Under the pieces are notes generated by a model, which saw only the letters and a program-made list of their open reading frames with translations, ran no database searches and was not told the origin of the DNA. The position numbers were made by a program, and so were the translations under genes. From an uncultured Methanomicrobiales archaeon (GTDB lineage Archaea > Halobacteriota > Methanomicrobia > Methanomicrobiales > Methanospirillaceae), in NCBI GenBank assembly GCA_903828975.1, contig CAIKOD010000028.1, positions 1 to 38,079 of the forward strand: a stretch of DNA of 38,079 nt, in the 5' to 3' direction. This document shows positions 7,897-16,485 of the stretch, piece by piece. How positions within the stretch are numbered: position 1 is the first letter of the stretch; the number at the start of each line of letters is the position of its first letter.

Positions 7897-8469
7897 TCAG
7901 GGAATGGGTTTCTTCTGTCTGAGTATTTGAATTGAAACAAGTGCGGCGTCCCTGGCTTTTAAATCAGGGTCGTTTGTAAGGCTTTGAAGGGCTGGCAGGG
8001 CGCGTGGGTCCCCGATCTGCCCGAGAGCCCTTGCCGAAACCTCACGCACATCATGTTTCTTATCGGTGAGGAGCCCGATGATCGGTTCAACCGCTGATGA
8101 GGCACGCAATTTTCCCAGTGCTTCAGCGGCATTCTTCCGGAGCCATTTCTCATCTGAACCGAGCACAGCAATAAGAGGCCCCACTGCGCGTGGGTCCCCG
8201 ATTTTCCCGAGTGACTCTGCGGCAAGCCAGCTGATCGTCGGGTCACCCAGAGCCTCGATGAGCGCGGGGACGGCTTCCGGGTTGCCGATTTCCCCAAGAT
8301 AATCGGATGCTTTTTCGCGATCGAGCTGGTGCGGGCTTTTTAAAAGGTAAACCAGCACCGTAACATCCTTACTGTGCTTCGATTTCATTTCAGCCTTGAT
8401 CTGTTCTAACTGGTACGGGGTTTCCGCATGCCCCCCATGTGCGTCCTGCTCGTCCGGAGTCTTTGTCAT
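7897..8469 (-). CDS. HEAT-repeat (PBS lyase-like) protein
   Basis: The 190-residue protein carries about four to five short HEAT repeats of the EZ/PBS-lyase type: LDREKASDYLGEIGNPEAVP, AAESLGKIGDPRAVGPLIAV, NAAEALGKLRASSAVEPIIG and SARALGQIGDPRALPALQ. The N-terminal 45 residues are charged and not repetitive. Such proteins are soluble scaffolds, and archaeal ones often have no assigned partner. The start ATG has SD GAGG about 6 nt upstream. It is monocistronic; no phycobilisome or lyase function is implied. Confidence 0.85.
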   Translation of the reverse strand: MTKTPDEQDAHGGHAETPYQLEQIKAEMKSKHSKDVTVLVYLLKSPHQLDREKASDYLGEIGNPEAVPALIEALGDPTISWLAAESLGKIGDPRAVGPLIAVLGSDEKWLRKNAAEALGKLRASSAVEPIIGLLTDKKHDVREVSARALGQIGDPRALPALQSLTNDPDLKARDAALVSIQILRQKKPIP

Positions 8470-9116
8470 TCGTATCCTCTACGGTGAAAATGGTTCTCCT
8501 GGTTCCCGTATATGAGAATTCCTGCCGGTGAATATCAATTCTTGCATAGGGGTAGACCGGTTGCATCCGCGGCCGACCCCGAACCTGGTCCGGCAGGTGA
8601 CTGGTCCCGTGACTACGGATGCAGGGTTCCAGTAGCAATGACGCGCAGGAGACATAGGTCCCGCCAGTGGAGATTGGAGGTAATGAATACCATTAATTTA
8701 AGCCTGATTTAAAAATAAGGAGCTATTGCAGTCAATTGTTCACCAGCATTTAGGGGTTGTGGTAGGAGAAAATATCCCCAGACCCGGCATGCCGGGCATT
8801 TCATCCTGCACCGGAGATAGAAATTCCGGAAGGGTATTTCGCTGTTCACCCGTCGATTTTTCGAAATAGCGCTGAACAGAGGATTTCAGAATCTTTTTAT
8901 ACCCCTTTATTTCCACTGGAGCGCACGATTTTACAGACGTATTTCGTCCGGGTGTGATCAACCTTCCCGGGACATGTTGAAGGTTTTAAGTGATATGTGG
9001 TTGATAATTGAATAACGGGGAAATTTCCCTGTTATTATTCCCGTCAAAGAACTGCGGTCGCACTTCTTCTCGTTTCATTTATCTCCGATCCGGAAGAGAA
9101 CTCCTGAGTGATTATC
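8470..9116. other. Long intergenic region with an inverted repeat
   Basis: About 640 bp lie between divergent genes. A short minus-strand frame at 8740-8961 has no recognisable product and I do not call it. TGCATCCG (8562-8569) and CGGATGCA (8616-8623) are exact inverted repeats around a 46-nt GC-rich loop, so a structured transcript is possible. Part of this stretch (GCAGGTGACTGGT then GATGCAGGGTTC) has a diverged partner at 18617-18650. Confidence 0.3.
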
Positions 9117-9605
9117 ATGAGAATATTATGCGTATACTATTCATGGAAAGGCCATACTGCAAAAGTTGCAGAAAGGCTCGCTGATTTATTGCATGTTGAA
9201 CCGGTACGGATTGAACCTGCCGTTGAATCAGGTATGTTCAGTAAGGCAATGAAAGCCCTTCTTGGCTGGAGCTCCCCCATTAAACCGGTGAAAGAGGACC
9301 TTACTGATATCGATGTACTGGTACTGGCATCTCCGGTCTGGGCAGGGAAGGTCCCCCCGTATGTGAATGAGTATATCAACAGGATGTCGATGTGTGAGGG
9401 AAAACGGTGCTACGTACTCGTAGAAATGGGGGCCTCCGGGGCAGAGAGGGCCATCGCACACTTAAAAGGGCGCCTTGAAAATAAAGGGATGAAACTCGCC
9501 GGATCGACATTCACGATAGAAAAGGAAGTGGATGAGGATTTAGTATACGAGCACCTGATCTCATTTGTGGAAACAATTCACGGGAAGACCATAGTACTGG
9601 TATAA
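9117..9605 (+). CDS. Flavodoxin family protein
   Basis: The 162-residue protein opens with MRILCVYYSWKGHTAKVAE, the FMN phosphate-binding loop of flavodoxins. It continues with DIDVLVLASPVWAGKVPPYV (FMN-ring loop with Trp) and CYVLVEMGASGAERA. The ATG at 9117 is preferred over a GTG three codons upstream because that GTG lies inside an SD-like GAGTGAT. In methanogens such proteins carry low-potential electrons or act as flavin reductases. It is a single gene, convergent with the large fusion gene, and a full-length MITE-like element lies between them. Confidence 0.88.
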   Translation: MRILCVYYSWKGHTAKVAERLADLLHVEPVRIEPAVESGMFSKAMKALLGWSSPIKPVKEDLTDIDVLVLASPVWAGKVPPYVNEYINRMSMCEGKRCYVLVEMGASGAERAIAHLKGRLENKGMKLAGSTFTIEKEVDEDLVYEHLISFVETIHGKTIVLV

Positions 9606-9633
9606 TCCGGATATATTTTTCAACAGTTCTTCT

Positions 9634-9995
9634 GGCTTTGTTGAAACCCTGCTTATTTTTTTTAATAAAAAAGGAAATACGTGGAGAGGAGGGGGTTTCA
9701 CCCCCTCCCTGTCCCACCCCTGTTAAGATACTCTTCGGCAGGGTTCAATTGGGACATTCAAAGAAAAAATTAAGAGATGGAGAGATCATTCCCTATCCCA
9801 ACCGGGGCCGTCAAATCGGCGGGACGGAGCCCCAGGAACGTTGGAAAATTTCGGAATAATCCTAAATAAGTAAAATTCGGGTAGAGAGTTTCCCATGAAA
9901 ATGCCTGAACGGCCCCCAATATAAGGAGATTTTTAACGAAGCATTTTCAATCGTCCGGGAGTGAATTCCCTGCTCATGTGTGTTTCAATAAAGCC
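9634..9995 (+). mobile_element. MITE-like element, copy B (full length, about 362 bp)
   Basis: The left end GGCTTTGTTGAAAC and right end GTTTCAATAAAGCC are terminal inverted repeats matching at 13 of 14 positions. Order inside: TTGAAACCCTGC (9641-9652), T/A-rich tract, perfect 9-bp-stem hairpin (9688-9708), inverted GCAGGGTTCAA (9738-9748), AT-rich spacer, conserved ATTCCCTATCCCAACCGGGG, GC hairpin with GGGGC/GCCCC (9804-9833), then TGCCTGAACGGCCCCCAATA and the right end. It has no transposase. I see no clear target duplication. It fills the gap between two convergent genes almost completely. Confidence 0.8.
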
Positions 9996-10020
9996 GGAAT
10001 ACGCTGTATTATCCCTGAAT

Positions 10021-12966
10021 CTAGATTCCCCGGGCAATCTCTGCGACGGCCGTAAGAAGCATATCCACGTCGTACTCGTTATTATACAGGGCAAGACTGG
10101 CACATACTGTCCCCTTCGGAAGAGCGAGGGCCTCCATGAGCGGTCCGCAACCCTGAAGGCCGGATTTTACCATGATATCTGCATTTTCATCAAGGTATCG
10201 GGCGATATCGTCCGGGTCAAGGGCCCCGATAGTGAATGAAATGACCCCTACCCGCCGTCCGGGATCATCCGTGGCGAACACACGTACGCCGTCGATACCC
10301 TTCAGGCCATCAACAAGGCGGGACGTGAGGTGGATATCATGGCGCCTGACCCTGTCCATTCCGATAGCACTCAAATAATCCACCGCCGCACCAAGACCAA
10401 TACCCCCTGAAATATGGGGTGTTCCCGCTTCATACTGCTGGTATCCTTTTACCGGGATACTACCTGTCACCTTGAGGGCCCCTGCCACTCCGCTGTCGGA
10501 CATTGGTGGGGAAAGGGTCCCCTGCTCTTTTATCCATAGGACCCCGGTACCAGTCGGACCGAGCATGGCATGGCCGGAACAGCAGAAGAAATCTGCACCG
10601 AGCTGGGTTACGTCCACGGGGATGTGTGGGACAGACTGTGACCCGTCAACAAGCAGCAGGGCACCATGCTTATGGCAGACCCGGGCAATCTCCCGTACCT
10701 GGGTAATCACCCCGAGCACGTGAGATGCGTGGGTCATGGCGATGAGTCTCACTCCTTCCCTGACAAGTAACTCATCGAGTACGGACATGTCAGGCAGGAA
10801 GTCCGGGCCAACCGGGAGGAGATCAAGGGTCGTTCCAGGGGCATTCTTCCCTTTCCATGGCAGGAGGCTGGAATGGTGCTCAAGCACAGTGGTGATGATG
10901 CGGTCCCCGCGTTGCCAGGAAATTCCACGGGCCACGATGTTCAACGCTTCAGTGGCATTTTTTGTAAAAACAAGCTCTCCACCGGCCCCACCGATGAACG
11001 CGGCAACCTTTTCATGCGCATGGTGGTACCGCTGGGTCGCAATCCCCGAAAGGCGGTGCACATTTTTTCCGACATTCGAACGGTAATTCCGTTCATATTC
11101 CAGCATTGCCTGGAGCACAGGCTCAGGTGAGAGGCCCATCGATGCGCTGTCAAGGTAAATAATATCAGTAAGCAGGGAGAAGTCAGGGCGAAGGCCCTCA
11201 AAAAAATCCTCCTCTTCACGTGAATGAAAAAAACGGTCCGTACCTGACGGAATTGAGGTTTCAATGCCGTATCTCTCTGCCTGGACGGGTTGATCAGGTA
11301 ATGGTACCATTGCCGTAGTGACTACCGGTTTGATATCCGGCATATTGCATGTTTCAGCCGGTCGTTCACCCGACTTTGAACTGGTAACCCCGGTAAAGGG
11401 CTGATGACTCCGTAGCGGGTTTTCTTTTCCCTTCGGGGGACCAGCGGTTACATTTCCAACCGGTGCAGCACTGATCTTTCCCATGGTCCTCGGTTCCTGC
11501 CTGGTCCCGGATGATGTTCCAGGGCCGGGGGATACCCGGGTTTTTTCCCTTGAAGTAAGGGATGCACCAGTAGACAGCGGTACTACCACAACCCCATCTG
11601 CGGTTTCGCGGAGTAGGATATTGTGCTGCCGGCAGAGTTCCTGCATCTTGTTCGGGAGTCCCTTCCAGCGCCAGAGCCCGAACGTGACATATTCAGGGGG
11701 GAGTCCCTTCTTTTCAGCCCAACGGGTGAGGAATTCCATGCACCTGGCCATGAGATCCGGGTGAATCCGCCAGAGTTCCGAGAACTCGGATTCAAGCATC
11801 GAGGGGCATGGATAGCAGCCAATCCGTTCAAGTCCCATATCGTAAAGCGGATTGATGGGGGCGTCCTGCCACCAGAGGTAGAGGAATACTTCGAGCGCCC
11901 GCCAGTTCCGTATAGGGGAGACGTTCAGCTGGAGCGGGTTTAAGGGGTTCTGGACTGCAAGCTCGAGATCGGCCCGGTTCCACGACTCGTACCACCTGTT
12001 GCCCTGTATGGTAACACAGGGGCCGGTCTTTTCCAGGTGGAGCCGGAGCGGGTTCTGTTTTTGGAGCTTGCAGCACCAGCGGTTGTCCTTGGCAGGTGGA
12101 CCTGCCTTCTCAACGGCCGCCCAGAAATTACCCGCCCCGCTGATCACCTCTATCCCGAGCGAATGAACGAACTCAATCGTCTCCGGGAACTCGATGCCGG
12201 TGTCAAGGAAAAATGCATCATTCACCCCGGCCTTCCTTGCCAGCAGGAGGATGGCCGTGCTGTCCTTTCCGCCCGAGAACGAGACATTTGCCACCGGGCG
12301 GTCGTTCATATGCTGTTTTATTGAGCGGACCGCGTTTCGTTCCAGGTTTTTTAAGTGGTACGTATTCCTGGTGACCGCTTCTGTCCATTCAGGGTCCCCA
12401 GGTCTCACCGGGGTGACCGGCATTACTTCTTTTACCCTTAATGACCCGTCTTTTAATACCGCTGTTCCGAACCGTCCCCGGTACTTTACTATTACAGTGC
12501 CGTCCGGGACACCGGTTGTAATCGTGAAACGTTTGCCCCCGATCCTGCCCCTGGTGTCACGGTCACCTGAAAGGACTGCGGCCTGTTCGAGGTCGACAAT
12601 ACCCTTCGTGGCATACGGGAGGACAAACGGGATGGCCTCGGGGGTGATGTCGAACCCGAACTGCCTGGAGACCGGGTCAAAGGATAACCAGCCAAAACGG
12701 GTTCCGTTTACAATAACAAGGTCATTCCGGTCGAGGCCGCCGGCTTTATTCAGGAGGACAATATTCGGGAGCGGTATATCCCCGAACTGTCCTGACACAA
12801 GGGCCTTGATCATCTCCATGTCAGCCCGGAGCGCAGGGCGTACATCATAAGGCTGGAGGAGCTCTATCGCCCGGCCATTAGCGCCACAGCTGCAGGACCT
12901 TCCAATGAGCGGAATATTGCACTGGTCACACCAGAAGAGGGTGGTCTTTACCGGGGGCTCTCTCAT
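10021..12966 (-). CDS. Zinc ribbon-PUA-PAPS reductase-like / cysteine desulfurase-like fusion protein
   Basis: The protein has 981 residues. A zinc ribbon (C13, C16, C25, C27) precedes a PUA-type RNA-binding region (about 100-185). Next is a CysH-like ATP-pyrophosphatase domain (about 200-450) with P-loop SGGKDST (231-237), C298/C299 and GCYPCPSM (C384, C387). A Ser/Pro/Thr/Gly-rich linker (about 465-570) leads to a class V aminotransferase domain of SufS/CsdA type (about 600-981). The last domain keeps NATEALNIVA, EHHSSLLPW, LLVDGSQ and GTPHISGG, but has SGHAMLGPTG where the family has SGHK, so the PLP lysine is Ala800. The region usually reading GHHC is GLQGCG (C940). PUA plus pyrophosphatase suggests RNA or tRNA sulfuration rather than PAPS reduction (inference). 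It is divergent from a TauE-type exporter. Confidence 0.85.
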   Translation of the reverse strand: MREPPVKTTLFWCDQCNIPLIGRSCSCGANGRAIELLQPYDVRPALRADMEMIKALVSGQFGDIPLPNIVLLNKAGGLDRNDLVIVNGTRFGWLSFDPVSRQFGFDITPEAIPFVLPYATKGIVDLEQAAVLSGDRDTRGRIGGKRFTITTGVPDGTVIVKYRGRFGTAVLKDGSLRVKEVMPVTPVRPGDPEWTEAVTRNTYHLKNLERNAVRSIKQHMNDRPVANVSFSGGKDSTAILLLARKAGVNDAFFLDTGIEFPETIEFVHSLGIEVISGAGNFWAAVEKAGPPAKDNRWCCKLQKQNPLRLHLEKTGPCVTIQGNRWYESWNRADLELAVQNPLNPLQLNVSPIRNWRALEVFLYLWWQDAPINPLYDMGLERIGCYPCPSMLESEFSELWRIHPDLMARCMEFLTRWAEKKGLPPEYVTFGLWRWKGLPNKMQELCRQHNILLRETADGVVVVPLSTGASLTSREKTRVSPGPGTSSGTRQEPRTMGKISAAPVGNVTAGPPKGKENPLRSHQPFTGVTSSKSGERPAETCNMPDIKPVVTTAMVPLPDQPVQAERYGIETSIPSGTDRFFHSREEEDFFEGLRPDFSLLTDIIYLDSASMGLSPEPVLQAMLEYERNYRSNVGKNVHRLSGIATQRYHHAHEKVAAFIGGAGGELVFTKNATEALNIVARGISWQRGDRIITTVLEHHSSLLPWKGKNAPGTTLDLLPVGPDFLPDMSVLDELLVREGVRLIAMTHASHVLGVITQVREIARVCHKHGALLLVDGSQSVPHIPVDVTQLGADFFCCSGHAMLGPTGTGVLWIKEQGTLSPPMSDSGVAGALKVTGSIPVKGYQQYEAGTPHISGGIGLGAAVDYLSAIGMDRVRRHDIHLTSRLVDGLKGIDGVRVFATDDPGRRVGVISFTIGALDPDDIARYLDENADIMVKSGLQGCGPLMEALALPKGTVCASLALYNNEYDVDMLLTAVAEIARGI

Positions 12967-13284
12967 CAGAGTAGCATTGGGGCGGAACGCTCATAATAGC
13001 GATCTTTCCGGACTGGCTCCGTGTACCAGCTACCCATACCGGTAACGGGAACGATGCACCGGTTTCGACATCTCGTCACCGGACCCTGACCATGACAGGG
13101 TTGTTCCCCCCTTCCTGTTTGTTAAATGGTTTTCCGTTACAGGGGTAACTATTATCTTTATCCGCATTTCATCTCTCTTTTAAATAGAAGGGCAACCAGG
13201 GATTTTTCCGGGTCGGATATCGGATAGACCGGGAACAACGTGGGAAAATGACCTGGCCGCTCCAGTCCGGATAGGTTGGACTCC
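12967..13284. other. Divergent promoter region
   Basis: These 318 bp lie between the divergent fusion gene and the TauE-type gene. TTTTAAATAG near 13178-13187 is a possible TATA for the rightward gene. No reading frame here looks real. Confidence 0.35.
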
Positions 13285-14103
13285 ATGATTGAAACCTGGC
13301 TAGCTGCTACCATACTTGTAATAACCGGGGTACTTGCTGGTTTTTCGTCAGGGCTCCTTGGCCTTGCCGGTTCGTATATTGACAACCCGGTCATGTACTG
13401 GATGCTCACCCACTACGGGTATGACACAGACACCTCTGTCCGCGTCGCATTTGGTACCAGTGTTGCCATTGCCCTGGTGATATCCGCAGTCAACACCCGG
13501 GAGCATGCAAAAGAACGGTCAATTATCTGGAAAATTGTTGTACTTATCGGGAGTGCGGGCATTGTCGGTGGCATTATCGGGGGGACCATCGCCACGCATG
13601 TTCCCGGGGGACCATTAAAAATACTGTTCGGACTGTTCCTCATAATATCTGCCATACGAATGGTATTACCGCTCCCGGAGGACTGGGGGAAGAAAAGAAT
13701 ACCCTGGTTTTACTGGAGTATTGCAGGCTTTTTATTCGGCCTGGTATCCGGGATCATAGGGATTGGTGGCGGGCTTATTATCCTCCCGATGTTAGTCTGT
13801 ATTTTTGGTGTACCGGTACACGAAGCAATGGCCACATCCTCAGCATGTATCATCTTCTCTTCCGCCGGGAGCACGATCGCCTATATTATTAACGGGATTG
13901 GTGTACCGGGCCTCCCGCCATTCTCTATCGGGTACGTGAACCTGGCGTTCTGGGCCGTTATTGTTGGTGTGACAATCCCGTTTACTATTCTCGGGGTACA
14001 TGTTGCAAACCACCTCCCTGCCAGAAAACTATCGGTAATATTTGCATTCCTGCTCATCCTGATCGCCCTTTACATGCTGGGGCTAATCCCGTCACCCACG
14101 TGA
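13285..14103 (+). CDS. TauE/SafE (DUF81) family membrane permease
   Basis: The protein has 272 residues with about eight hydrophobic segments. It has the two family-typical glycine-rich repeats, ITGVLAGFSSGLLGLAGSYI at the N-terminus and LFGLVSGIIGIGGGLIILPM in the middle, each followed by SVRVAFGTS or EAMATSSACII. The ATG was chosen; a TTG three codons upstream is possible. Family members move sulfite, sulfoacetate, taurine products or other organic anions. The divergent neighbour is a sulfur-transfer-type protein, so a sulfur-related substrate is plausible but only by context. Confidence 0.88.
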   Translation: MIETWLAATILVITGVLAGFSSGLLGLAGSYIDNPVMYWMLTHYGYDTDTSVRVAFGTSVAIALVISAVNTREHAKERSIIWKIVVLIGSAGIVGGIIGGTIATHVPGGPLKILFGLFLIISAIRMVLPLPEDWGKKRIPWFYWSIAGFLFGLVSGIIGIGGGLIILPMLVCIFGVPVHEAMATSSACIIFSSAGSTIAYIINGIGVPGLPPFSIGYVNLAFWAVIVGVTIPFTILGVHVANHLPARKLSVIFAFLLILIALYMLGLIPSPT

Positions 14104-14259
14104 ACCGGGGTAGCGGTCGCCCTTTTTGAATTGAACATAAACTCCAGTAAGCAGGATTCCACGGATGTGTGATTAACTGTATGAAATAACACTCAATCTG
14201 AAACAGGGCATATCAGGATTATAAAGAGCAGGGAAGGGAGAAAAGTTTTAATTATATCT

Positions 14260-14588
14260 GCTTTGTTGAAACACACATGAACGGGAAGTTCACACCCGAA
14301 CCATGAAAACAGACATGATGTCAAAAGGTCACAGGCATAAGAAATGAAAATGCCAGGTTGGTTTTTTCATATTAAATGCCACGTTCAAAATCTCCTTATA
14401 TTGGGGGCCATATTGGGGGCCGTTCAGGCATTTACATGGGAAACCCTCCAAAATCTATCTTGTAGATTGGGGTATTCCAATATTTAGTCACGCTCCCGGG
14501 GTTTACGCCCCGCCGCTGTGGCGACTCCGGTTGGGATAGGGAATAGCTTTCTCTCTCTGAAATTTTCAGGAATACCCATACTATCTTT
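14260..14588 (-). mobile_element. MITE-like element, copy E (left part missing)
   Basis: In minus orientation this copy retains the ATTCCCTATCCCAACCGGAG module, the GC hairpin, the ATGCCTGAACGGCCCCCAAT segment (with GGCCCCCAATAT duplicated), and the terminal right end GTTTCAACAAAGC. The right end sits at 14260-14273 on the plus strand as GCTTTGTTGAAAC. The left module and left terminal repeat are absent; homology stops about 20 bp from the stop codon of the STAS gene. It lies between convergent genes (TauE-type and STAS) and explains most of the 500-bp gap. Confidence 0.7.
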
Positions 14589-14609
14589 TTTCGGAACGCT
14601 CCCCCCGGA

Positions 14610-15917
14610 TTATTCATGCCGTTCGATTGATGAAATATAGGAGACACCGATCTTGGCCTTGCGCAGCCTGGTCTCATCCATCAGGTGGCGCATGTCCACG
14701 AATTCCCCGTCCTCTGCGATGGTCTTCACCTGGCGAGAGATTTCAAATTTCGGGTCATAGGGGGTGTTCCGGAAGACGACGCCGTGGTTGTGGAGGTACA
14801 TTGTTGCCGTCCCCTTGTTCCCCGGGTGGACATAATGGAGTGCGTCGAGGTCTTCGGATGAGAAGGTTGAGAGATCCCCGGACAAATCGATGCCAATCCC
14901 AAAACTCACGAGAGTATCACCGCGGTACCGGGGTTCCCGGTTTGTGTCATTCCATTCGTCATAATTTTCCGGGTCCATGATCGATTTATGGTTCGCCGGG
15001 GCCCGCTCCTGCATGGGGGAATGGGTGATCTCAGAACTGATTACGCCCTCCACAACTCCCCAGATAACAAGGCTGATTATTCCCTTGAAATCGGCCTTCC
15101 GTGCCCGTGCGAGGATAAATATTGCCGAATAAACCTCTGCCAGTGATACCCCGTTCTCATGGGGAGTTTCGAAGGTGAACAACTCGTGGAACGGACCGGA
15201 GAGCCGCACATTGAACCCCGTGAAAATTTTTACCTCCCCCGTCTCCTTTACCGGGGTGAAGAAGTCGGGAGTAAAATGGCCGTCAGTCGGGACGTAGACC
15301 ATCGAACCATGGAGCGTAATCATCTCCCCCATCAGTGGCAGTGCGTCTGCTGCATCTTTTCCAAGCGCACCAAGACCGAGGGAATAATCCGCCTCCTTAA
15401 ACCCGAGGGTCCGGATGTCCTGCAGGGTGATCGCGGAATTCAGGACCTTCAAAAGGCTCCCCGTGACGATAAGCGATGCGCCCTTCGGGGACCCGGGTTC
15501 GATTGTGTAGGTAACCCCGTCAACCACAAAAGACGGGTGCCTTACCCCGAACAGGACGCCCTCCTCGCTGGGTTTCACCCGGCATGCAACCTGGGCCTCC
15601 TGGAGTGTTGGGTAGATATCAAGTACTTTAAGGAACCCGGCCATTTCCAGCACACTTTTTGGGAATTCCCTGACATTGATAAGGGCAAGTGTCCCGTCTC
15701 TCAGCTTCAGCCTCTTCTTCAGCCCAAGGAGTACGCGGATCCCTGCACTTGAAAGGTAGTCCACCCCTGCAAGGTTGAAGATCACTGATCTTGTGTCATC
15801 CCTCACAATTTCCTTCAGTCCAGTCTCCAGTTGCTGTGCTCCGAACCCGTCGAGTCTTCCTGTAAGGGTCACTATCGGCACCTCGTCCTCGTTAGCCAGC
15901 CGGATCTCAATACTCAT
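14610..15917 (-). CDS. STAS-domain protein with a large uncharacterised C-terminal region
   Basis: The protein has 435 residues. Residues 1-105 are a STAS domain (VPIVTLTGRLDGFGAQQL, VIFNLAGVDYLSSAGIRVLL), with S57 at the position phosphorylated in SpoIIAA-like antagonists. Residues of about 115-435 form a soluble domain that I do not recognise. It contains LGLGALGKDAADALPLMGEM, HGSMVYVPTDG, EGVISSEITHSP, VSFGIGIDLSGD, and a late HNHGVVFRNTPYD. The STAS part implies regulation by a Ser kinase/phosphatase, so the rest may be the effector (inference). The start ATG has AGGA about 9 nt upstream. It is encoded alone. Confidence 0.8.
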   Translation of the reverse strand: MSIEIRLANEDEVPIVTLTGRLDGFGAQQLETGLKEIVRDDTRSVIFNLAGVDYLSSAGIRVLLGLKKRLKLRDGTLALINVREFPKSVLEMAGFLKVLDIYPTLQEAQVACRVKPSEEGVLFGVRHPSFVVDGVTYTIEPGSPKGASLIVTGSLLKVLNSAITLQDIRTLGFKEADYSLGLGALGKDAADALPLMGEMITLHGSMVYVPTDGHFTPDFFTPVKETGEVKIFTGFNVRLSGPFHELFTFETPHENGVSLAEVYSAIFILARARKADFKGIISLVIWGVVEGVISSEITHSPMQERAPANHKSIMDPENYDEWNDTNREPRYRGDTLVSFGIGIDLSGDLSTFSSEDLDALHYVHPGNKGTATMYLHNHGVVFRNTPYDPKFEISRQVKTIAEDGEFVDMRHLMDETRLRKAKIGVSYISSIERHE

Positions 15918-15957
15918 ATAAATCGTTCCTGAAAAGGTGTATAGACCCCCTGCCTCA

Positions 15958-16485
15958 TTAAATGGGTGTATCTGTCAGGTTACCGGTGTGGATCTGGGAA
16001 AAGGTGATACGGCCCCCGTTCTCAAGATAGCGTTTTACTTTTTTCTGGCTCTCTGAAAGGGCACCTGTTTTCCCACTCTTTACCTCGACAAAGATAATGC
16101 CATCGAGTTCCTTATCTTCCGATAGACCTGAAAAGACAATCAGGTCGATCGGGGTACCAATAAAACGTGTGTCTCTCGGGTTCCACGGGAAATCAGGGAA
16201 ATATGGGAGAAGGTGCTGCGTTACATTCCCCCGGATCGTTGCACCGCTCTGCTTCACAGCTTCCGCTCTTGATGCCTTCTCCCTGTCGAGGACCCATTCC
16301 CGGTTGATGAGGTCTGCACGGCTGGCTGCCTCATGCTCCAGGGTGCTGCTCTTCCATTCTTCGAACATCTGCCTTGCCCGGGACTCTGTTCCACCGGCGA
16401 GTGATGCATACCGAAAGGCGATAACGACGAGCCCGGCCCCAAGGACCAGGGACGCAATAAGGAGCACAGCGGTAATACTATCCAT
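15958..16485 (-). CDS. Membrane-anchored endonuclease-like protein related to archaeal Holliday junction resolvases
   Basis: The 175-residue protein has an N-terminal transmembrane helix (about 5-24), a charged coiled-coil region (30-85), then a nuclease-like domain. That domain contains NVTQHLLPYFPDFPWNPRD and RFIGTPIDLIVFSG with D114, then IIFVEVKSGK with E134 and K136, and a final helix after LSESQKKV. The D...ExK arrangement is the PD-(D/E)XK signature. It matches the group described as predicted secreted or anchored endonucleases distantly related to the Holliday resolvase (COG4741, from memory). Catalytic residues look complete. No DNA-uptake or repair genes are adjacent. Confidence 0.8.
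   Translation of the reverse strand: MDSITAVLLIASLVLGAGLVVIAFRYASLAGGTESRARQMFEEWKSSTLEHEAASRADLINREWVLDREKASRAEAVKQSGATIRGNVTQHLLPYFPDFPWNPRDTRFIGTPIDLIVFSGLSEDKELDGIIFVEVKSGKTGALSESQKKVKRYLENGGRITFSQIHTGNLTDTPI

Follow-up and report, generated by a model that had tools for sequence, protein, structure and literature searches.

A CysH-SufS fusion has been described for the Methanomicrobiales as cluster 536 (PMC11237513), and the protein discussed here shares both its two-domain architecture and its archaeal order. The accessible portion of that report sets out the architecture and makes no mention of active-site loss; most of the fusions that we surveyed do have an intact desulfurase site, an orthologue from Methanospirillum stamsii (L028) being one example. 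Lysine-less archaeal desulfurase homologues have been described separately, namely, Archaeoglobus fulgidus IscS (Lys to Asp) and, as a second candidate, Methanosarcina acetivorans IscS1 (PMC7585200). According to that study, A. fulgidus IscS has lost its desulfurase activity and plays a structural role with IscU, in which its Cys acts as a cluster ligand. As with these two proteins, at least as they are presented there, the C-terminal domain considered here is a desulfurase fold in an anaerobic archaeon in which the PLP lysine has been replaced (Ala800). However, whereas A. fulgidus IscS and M. acetivorans IscS1 are standalone proteins of the IscS (group I) type, our domain is closest to SufS (group II) and is fused to a PAPS-reductase-like domain. 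Moreover, unlike the A. fulgidus protein, it has also lost the nucleophilic Cys (C939G, leaving only the neighbouring Cys940) and the substrate Arg. It has the same fold as the group II desulfurases SufS/TON_0289 (PDB 5b7s and 5b7u; Z 53, with ca. 40% identity to TON_0289) but lacks their catalytic Lys, Cys and Arg.

We surveyed 53 loci from genome contigs, together with further domains from 232 genomes of the order. The window (the entire 38,079-nucleotide stretch of DNA that was analyzed) comes from one of four genomes that make up its genus in this survey: G000 (the window), G003 (locus L001), G001 (L002) and G002 (L003 and L005). Positions 10021 to 12966 of its reverse strand, on which all features of the gene are given below, encode a 981-residue protein in which a PAPS-reductase-like domain is followed in a single frame by a SufS-type domain, as in the CysH-SufS fusion. 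Pfam recognizes PF01507 (PAPS_reduct) at residues 227 to 389 and PF00266 (Aminotran_5, class V) at residues 603 to 970, the latter with an E value of 1.6e-95. The best NCBIfam desulfurase match of the C domain is TIGR01979 (sufS), at 312.7 bits and below its cutoff of 475.1. By column comparison, the N-terminal part (residues 1 to 452; 11611 to 12966) is intact. It is followed by a long, variable and fast-evolving linker (residues 456 to 595; 11182 to 11601), with an omega of 0.46 against L001, and then by the SufS-type desulfurase fold (residues 596 to 981; 10024 to 11181), which alignment, an AF2 model and invariant columns together describe as a retained fold with a decayed catalytic site.

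The N domain combines its PF01507 match with an intact PP-loop motif, SFSGGKDS (residues 229 to 236; 12259 to 12282), and with both halves of a CC...CxxC motif, a pattern known from the [4Fe-4S] APS reductases. The first half, Cys298-Cys299 (12070 to 12075), occurs without exception in all 39 intact fusions and in those decayed fusions whose sequence covers it; the second is Cys384-x-x-Cys387 (11806 to 11817). The domain therefore looks, in sequence, like a [4Fe-4S] APS-reductase-like PP-loop domain, and it probably binds a [4Fe-4S] cluster through these cysteines. No PUA or other RNA-binding domain was matched by Pfam in the N-terminal part up to an E value of 1, and for this reason we do not claim an RNA substrate for it. 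Only 1 of the 121 columns that are invariant in the N domain of the 39 intact fusions has changed in the window. This is W409C (11740 to 11742), which is common to all four genus members and might form part of an interface with the C domain or act as a newly acquired functional Cys.

At codon 800 (10567 to 10569), within SGHAMLGPTG, the window reads GCC (Ala) where, in alignment, B. subtilis SufS and T. onnurineus TON_0289 have their PLP lysine and E. coli SufS has K226; the earlier note had both the codon and the residue right. The lysine that an active group II (SufS/CsdA) desulfurase carries in SGHK is absent. Among 171 related archaeal domains, this position is Lys in 166, Arg in 4 and Ala in the window alone (the alignment of 172 domains includes the B. 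subtilis reference, with which the Lys count is 167), so that Ala800 is not chance variation. The lysine codon is AAG or AAA in 52 aligned relatives, and the change to GCC thus requires three base changes. The Ala codon forms a short tandem repeat, GCCATGCCATG, at 10561 to 10575, which may hint at an origin of the three-base change by template slippage. The orthologue alignment that had been suggested as a check on whether Ala is fixed among Methanomicrobiales fusions shows that it is not: the other three genomes of the genus (G003, G001 and G002) have Lys, and Ala occurs in this genome alone. Orthologues with Lys had been named among the things that would refute the earlier claim, and as regards the specific Ala they do so; a base error at codon 800 would nevertheless matter little, since the other losses described below are common to independent assemblies. 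We also looked for a replacement lysine. The window-only lysines include K707, K766 and K832, but none stands at a position where the relatives have a conserved Lys, and a substitute lysine would not make up for the missing Cys and Arg. Elsewhere in the order, one otherwise intact fusion domain (L187, from G198) has Gln instead of His before the PLP lysine (GQK).

The earlier note had all other PLP-site motifs remaining, and this stands for the PLP-holding positions T672, H697, D774, Q777, H799 and T849, which the alignment shows to be retained. It does not stand for the rest of the site. Intact fusions, which read SGHHCC...GTVRAS, show almost no variation at the Lys, Cys, Asn and Arg positions (residue table, 172 domains). 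In the window, the persulfide-forming Cys (C364 of E. coli SufS), expected in the H-C loop of an active group II enzyme, is Gly (C939G), a change found in all four genus genomes, and the preceding His is replaced in the window only (H938Q); the two codons span 10150 to 10155. Cys940 (10147 to 10149), the second Cys of the HCC motif, is kept throughout the genus. The Arg that binds the substrate carboxylate (R379 of E. coli SufS) has become Cys (R955C; 10102 to 10104) in the window and L001. The Arg at the E. coli R359 position has been lost genus-wide (R934K in the window, 10165 to 10167, and Lys or Thr across the four members), as has the Asn at the E. coli N175 position (N749H; 10720 to 10722). 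In the loop that precedes the beta-hairpin, the conserved GG reads G824D and G825S (10492 to 10497), G825 being lost genus-wide. Desulfurase activity has probably been lost, judging from these residues. The earlier expectation that normal chemistry should be gone is thus supported by the sequence, but not with the lysine as its cause, since all four genus members already lack the Cys and the whole site has decayed.

A wider count gives the same picture. There are 87 columns of the C domain that are invariant in the 39 intact fusions, and 15 of these have changed in the window, 11 in L001, 10 in L002 and 11 in L003; intact fusions judged leave-one-out have on average 0.69 and at most 3 changed. 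For the most part, the 15 coincide with or adjoin positions known from SufS structures; they include the Lys, the Cys, both Arg, the Asn, the His that precedes the Cys, the GG ahead of the beta-hairpin and the R-G within VHRGVH. Among the structure matches of the C domain are PDB entries named for the mutants C364A, R359A, R56A, H121A, C361A and R376A.

We consider it likely that the C domain is a pseudo-desulfurase that has decayed stepwise and is still under selection, serving most probably as a structural, dimerizing or docking module, with sulfur coming from sulfide or from a donor in trans. The first step, in an ancestor common to the genus, would have removed the nucleophilic Cys along with the counterparts of N175 and R359. 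Loss of the carboxylate-binding Arg would have followed in the window and L001. Branching within the genus is weakly supported in the DNA tree (87/92 and 93/97) and collapses in the protein tree, so that R955C may represent either one loss or two parallel losses. The final losses, confined to this genome, would have been those of the His preceding the nucleophile and of the PLP lysine, the lysine apparently being the last to go.

The retention of the fold is seen both in a predicted structure and in substitution rates. The AF2 model of the C domain (pLDDT 91.7, pTM 0.91) superimposes, with 384 residues matched at ca. 1.5 Å (Z 53), on the structures of SufS and TON_0289, although, as the AF2 alignment consists mostly of intact relatives, the model speaks for compatibility with the fold rather than for stability. 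Together with the PF00266 and subthreshold TIGR01979 matches, it places the domain in the fold type I, class V aminotransferase fold with a SufS-like sequence. When the window is compared with L001, which likewise lacks the Cys and the Arg, the C domain shows a dN of 0.106, a dS of 0.73 and an omega of 0.146 (95% interval, 0.103 to 0.197), against 0.054 (0.034 to 0.080) for the N domain and a median of 0.091 (5 to 95% range, 0.06 to 0.15) for the C domains of intact-fusion pairs. The C domain is under purifying selection after the loss of its Cys, with a constraint that is somewhat below that of active relatives and still strong. This omega argues against a recent pseudogene as the preferred reading. 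It is because the fold has been kept by selection that we favor a structural, dimerizing or docking role.

The same rates bear on the best surviving alternative, namely, plain decay: the C domain would be unneeded and on its way out, its frame and fold kept only by recency and by the need to spare the N domain. Catalytic residues have indeed been lost one by one, the fused domain is absent altogether from other genomes, and C-domain omega within the decayed genus (0.12 to 0.165) exceeds the intact median of 0.091, a moderate rise that leaves room for a slow relaxation towards loss. However, the four genus lineages are separated by pairwise dS values of 0.7 to 1.0, and each is Cys-less yet has a full-length frame and an omega far below 1; the window still has 72 of the 87 invariant columns unchanged; and a second clade of decayed fusions likewise retains the fold, with an omega of 0.200 (0.142 to 0.272) between L070 and L117. 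We therefore regard plain decay as unlikely.

This second clade belongs to another family of Methanomicrobiales and consists of L070 (316 to 2982; G038), L117 (1483 to 4122; G061), L183 (G137) and L184 (G053). The decay of its site took place separately from that in the window genus, and its members have in common the changes of Lys to Arg, Asn to Gly, Gln to His, Cys to Asp or Gly and Arg359 to Ser or Gly. The second clade (support, 96) and the window genus (support, 100) form separate clades among intact fusions in a phylogeny of 74 C domains; it was built by a quick method with the catalytic columns left out, and its long branches leave the precise positions uncertain. L070 and L117 have lost 14 columns in common, six of which belong to the 15 changed in the window (hypergeometric P = 0.013), and the identical change T610M has arisen in both clades. 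The pockets of L070 and L117 have Asp or His at several positions (H697D/E, Q777H, H799D and C939D), and could be a site for a different ligand. One broader and quite tentative proposal is that fused desulfurase domains became selected noncatalytic modules at least twice independently in the Methanomicrobiales, partly through the same positions (T610M included), with the Asp/His-rich pocket of the second clade holding a new ligand or function.

A second alternative, which we think more doubtful than plain decay, is that the pocket of the window domain binds some other ligand (PLP held noncovalently, a metal or a sulfur species on Cys940) and has acquired a new activity or a sensing role. The six retained PLP-holding residues would suit such a role, as would the acidic and histidine residues of the second clade, the T610M shared by both clades and the presence of Cys940 in 7 of the 8 decayed members (including three of the four in the second clade). 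On the other hand, the pocket varies within the window genus (R934 has become K or T, residue 955 is R or C and residue 800 is K or A), which resembles drift rather than a new fixed site. The earlier view that a preserved fold points to a selected noncatalytic or altered role is borne out as to selection on the fold, which fits a noncatalytic role, while an altered role is favored less. It is very improbable that Ala800 reflects an erroneous base or assembly and that the enzyme is an ordinary desulfurase: the residue is known from a single fragmented assembly (186 contigs, in collections with one genome per species) and the change creates the short tandem noted above, but an error would require three adjacent base changes in a gene that is otherwise open, C939G, R955C and N749H are common to independent assemblies, and Lys at 800 would still leave the Cys and Arg missing.

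On the reading that we prefer, a stepwise-decayed and still selected pseudo-desulfurase, the C domain would dimerize, stabilize or dock the intact N domain, which in turn would be fed by free sulfide or by a separate desulfurase rather than by cysteine in cis. In the genome survey of the order, many relatives have an N domain to which no desulfurase is fused; sulfur supply in cis is thus not obligatory, and the C domain can in principle be dispensed with. All four genus members encode a standalone desulfurase homologue in which K, HCC and R are retained (L084, L097, L098 and L099). The second clade has an intact one in three of four genomes, G038 (L110), G061 (L185) and G053 (L112), the remaining genome, G137, being only 56% complete. 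By comparison, a second strong desulfurase match was counted by eye in about 35 of about 150 genomes with intact fusions. The association of decayed fusions with a standalone desulfurase is suggestive, drawn as it is from two independent lineages only. In the window genome, a sulfur-transfer cluster (contig C9, L096:2983-10163) encodes ThiF, NifU/IscU, an IscS/NifS-type protein, the standalone SufS-type protein, FdhD, a PP-loop protein and NadA; the stop codon of the standalone desulfurase gene, which lies at L096:5714-6919, directly precedes fdhD, and this desulfurase may therefore serve FdhD and not the fusion protein. As regards sulfide, the [4Fe-4S] PP-loop tRNA thiolase NcsA of M. maripaludis works with inorganic sulfide in vitro (PMC10067955), ThiI of the same organism is able to work with sulfide in vitro, and for the methanogens studied it is reported that the donor is not free cysteine (PMC5372739).

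The gene lies between a flavodoxin-like gene (9108 to 9605, forward strand; syntenic in L001 and L002) and a TauE/SafE-type transporter gene (13276 to 14103, forward strand; beside the fusion in L001 and L005). When positions 7897 to 16485 of the window were compared with L001, L002 and L005, an order of endonuclease-like, STAS, TauE-type, fusion, flavodoxin and HEAT genes proved syntenic within the genus; around the fusions of other genera, no such neighbourhood was detected.

Our literature searches on pseudoenzyme desulfurases and CysH-SufS fusions yielded nothing further beyond PMC11237513, and we have not found described a SufS-type domain within a fusion that has lost its Cys, Arg and Lys, in which the site has been lost in two clades and the fold is still selected. 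Intact fusions and the decayed members of the window genus together form a stepwise series for the death of a PLP enzyme within a bifunctional protein (intact, Cys lost, Cys and Arg lost, and Cys, Arg and Lys lost), with the fold still selected and the second clade serving as a replicate. Because the donor half of the fusion has probably lost its activity and the partner half is intact, the series makes it testable whether the sulfur-transfer enzymes of methanogens need a cysteine donor or run on sulfide.
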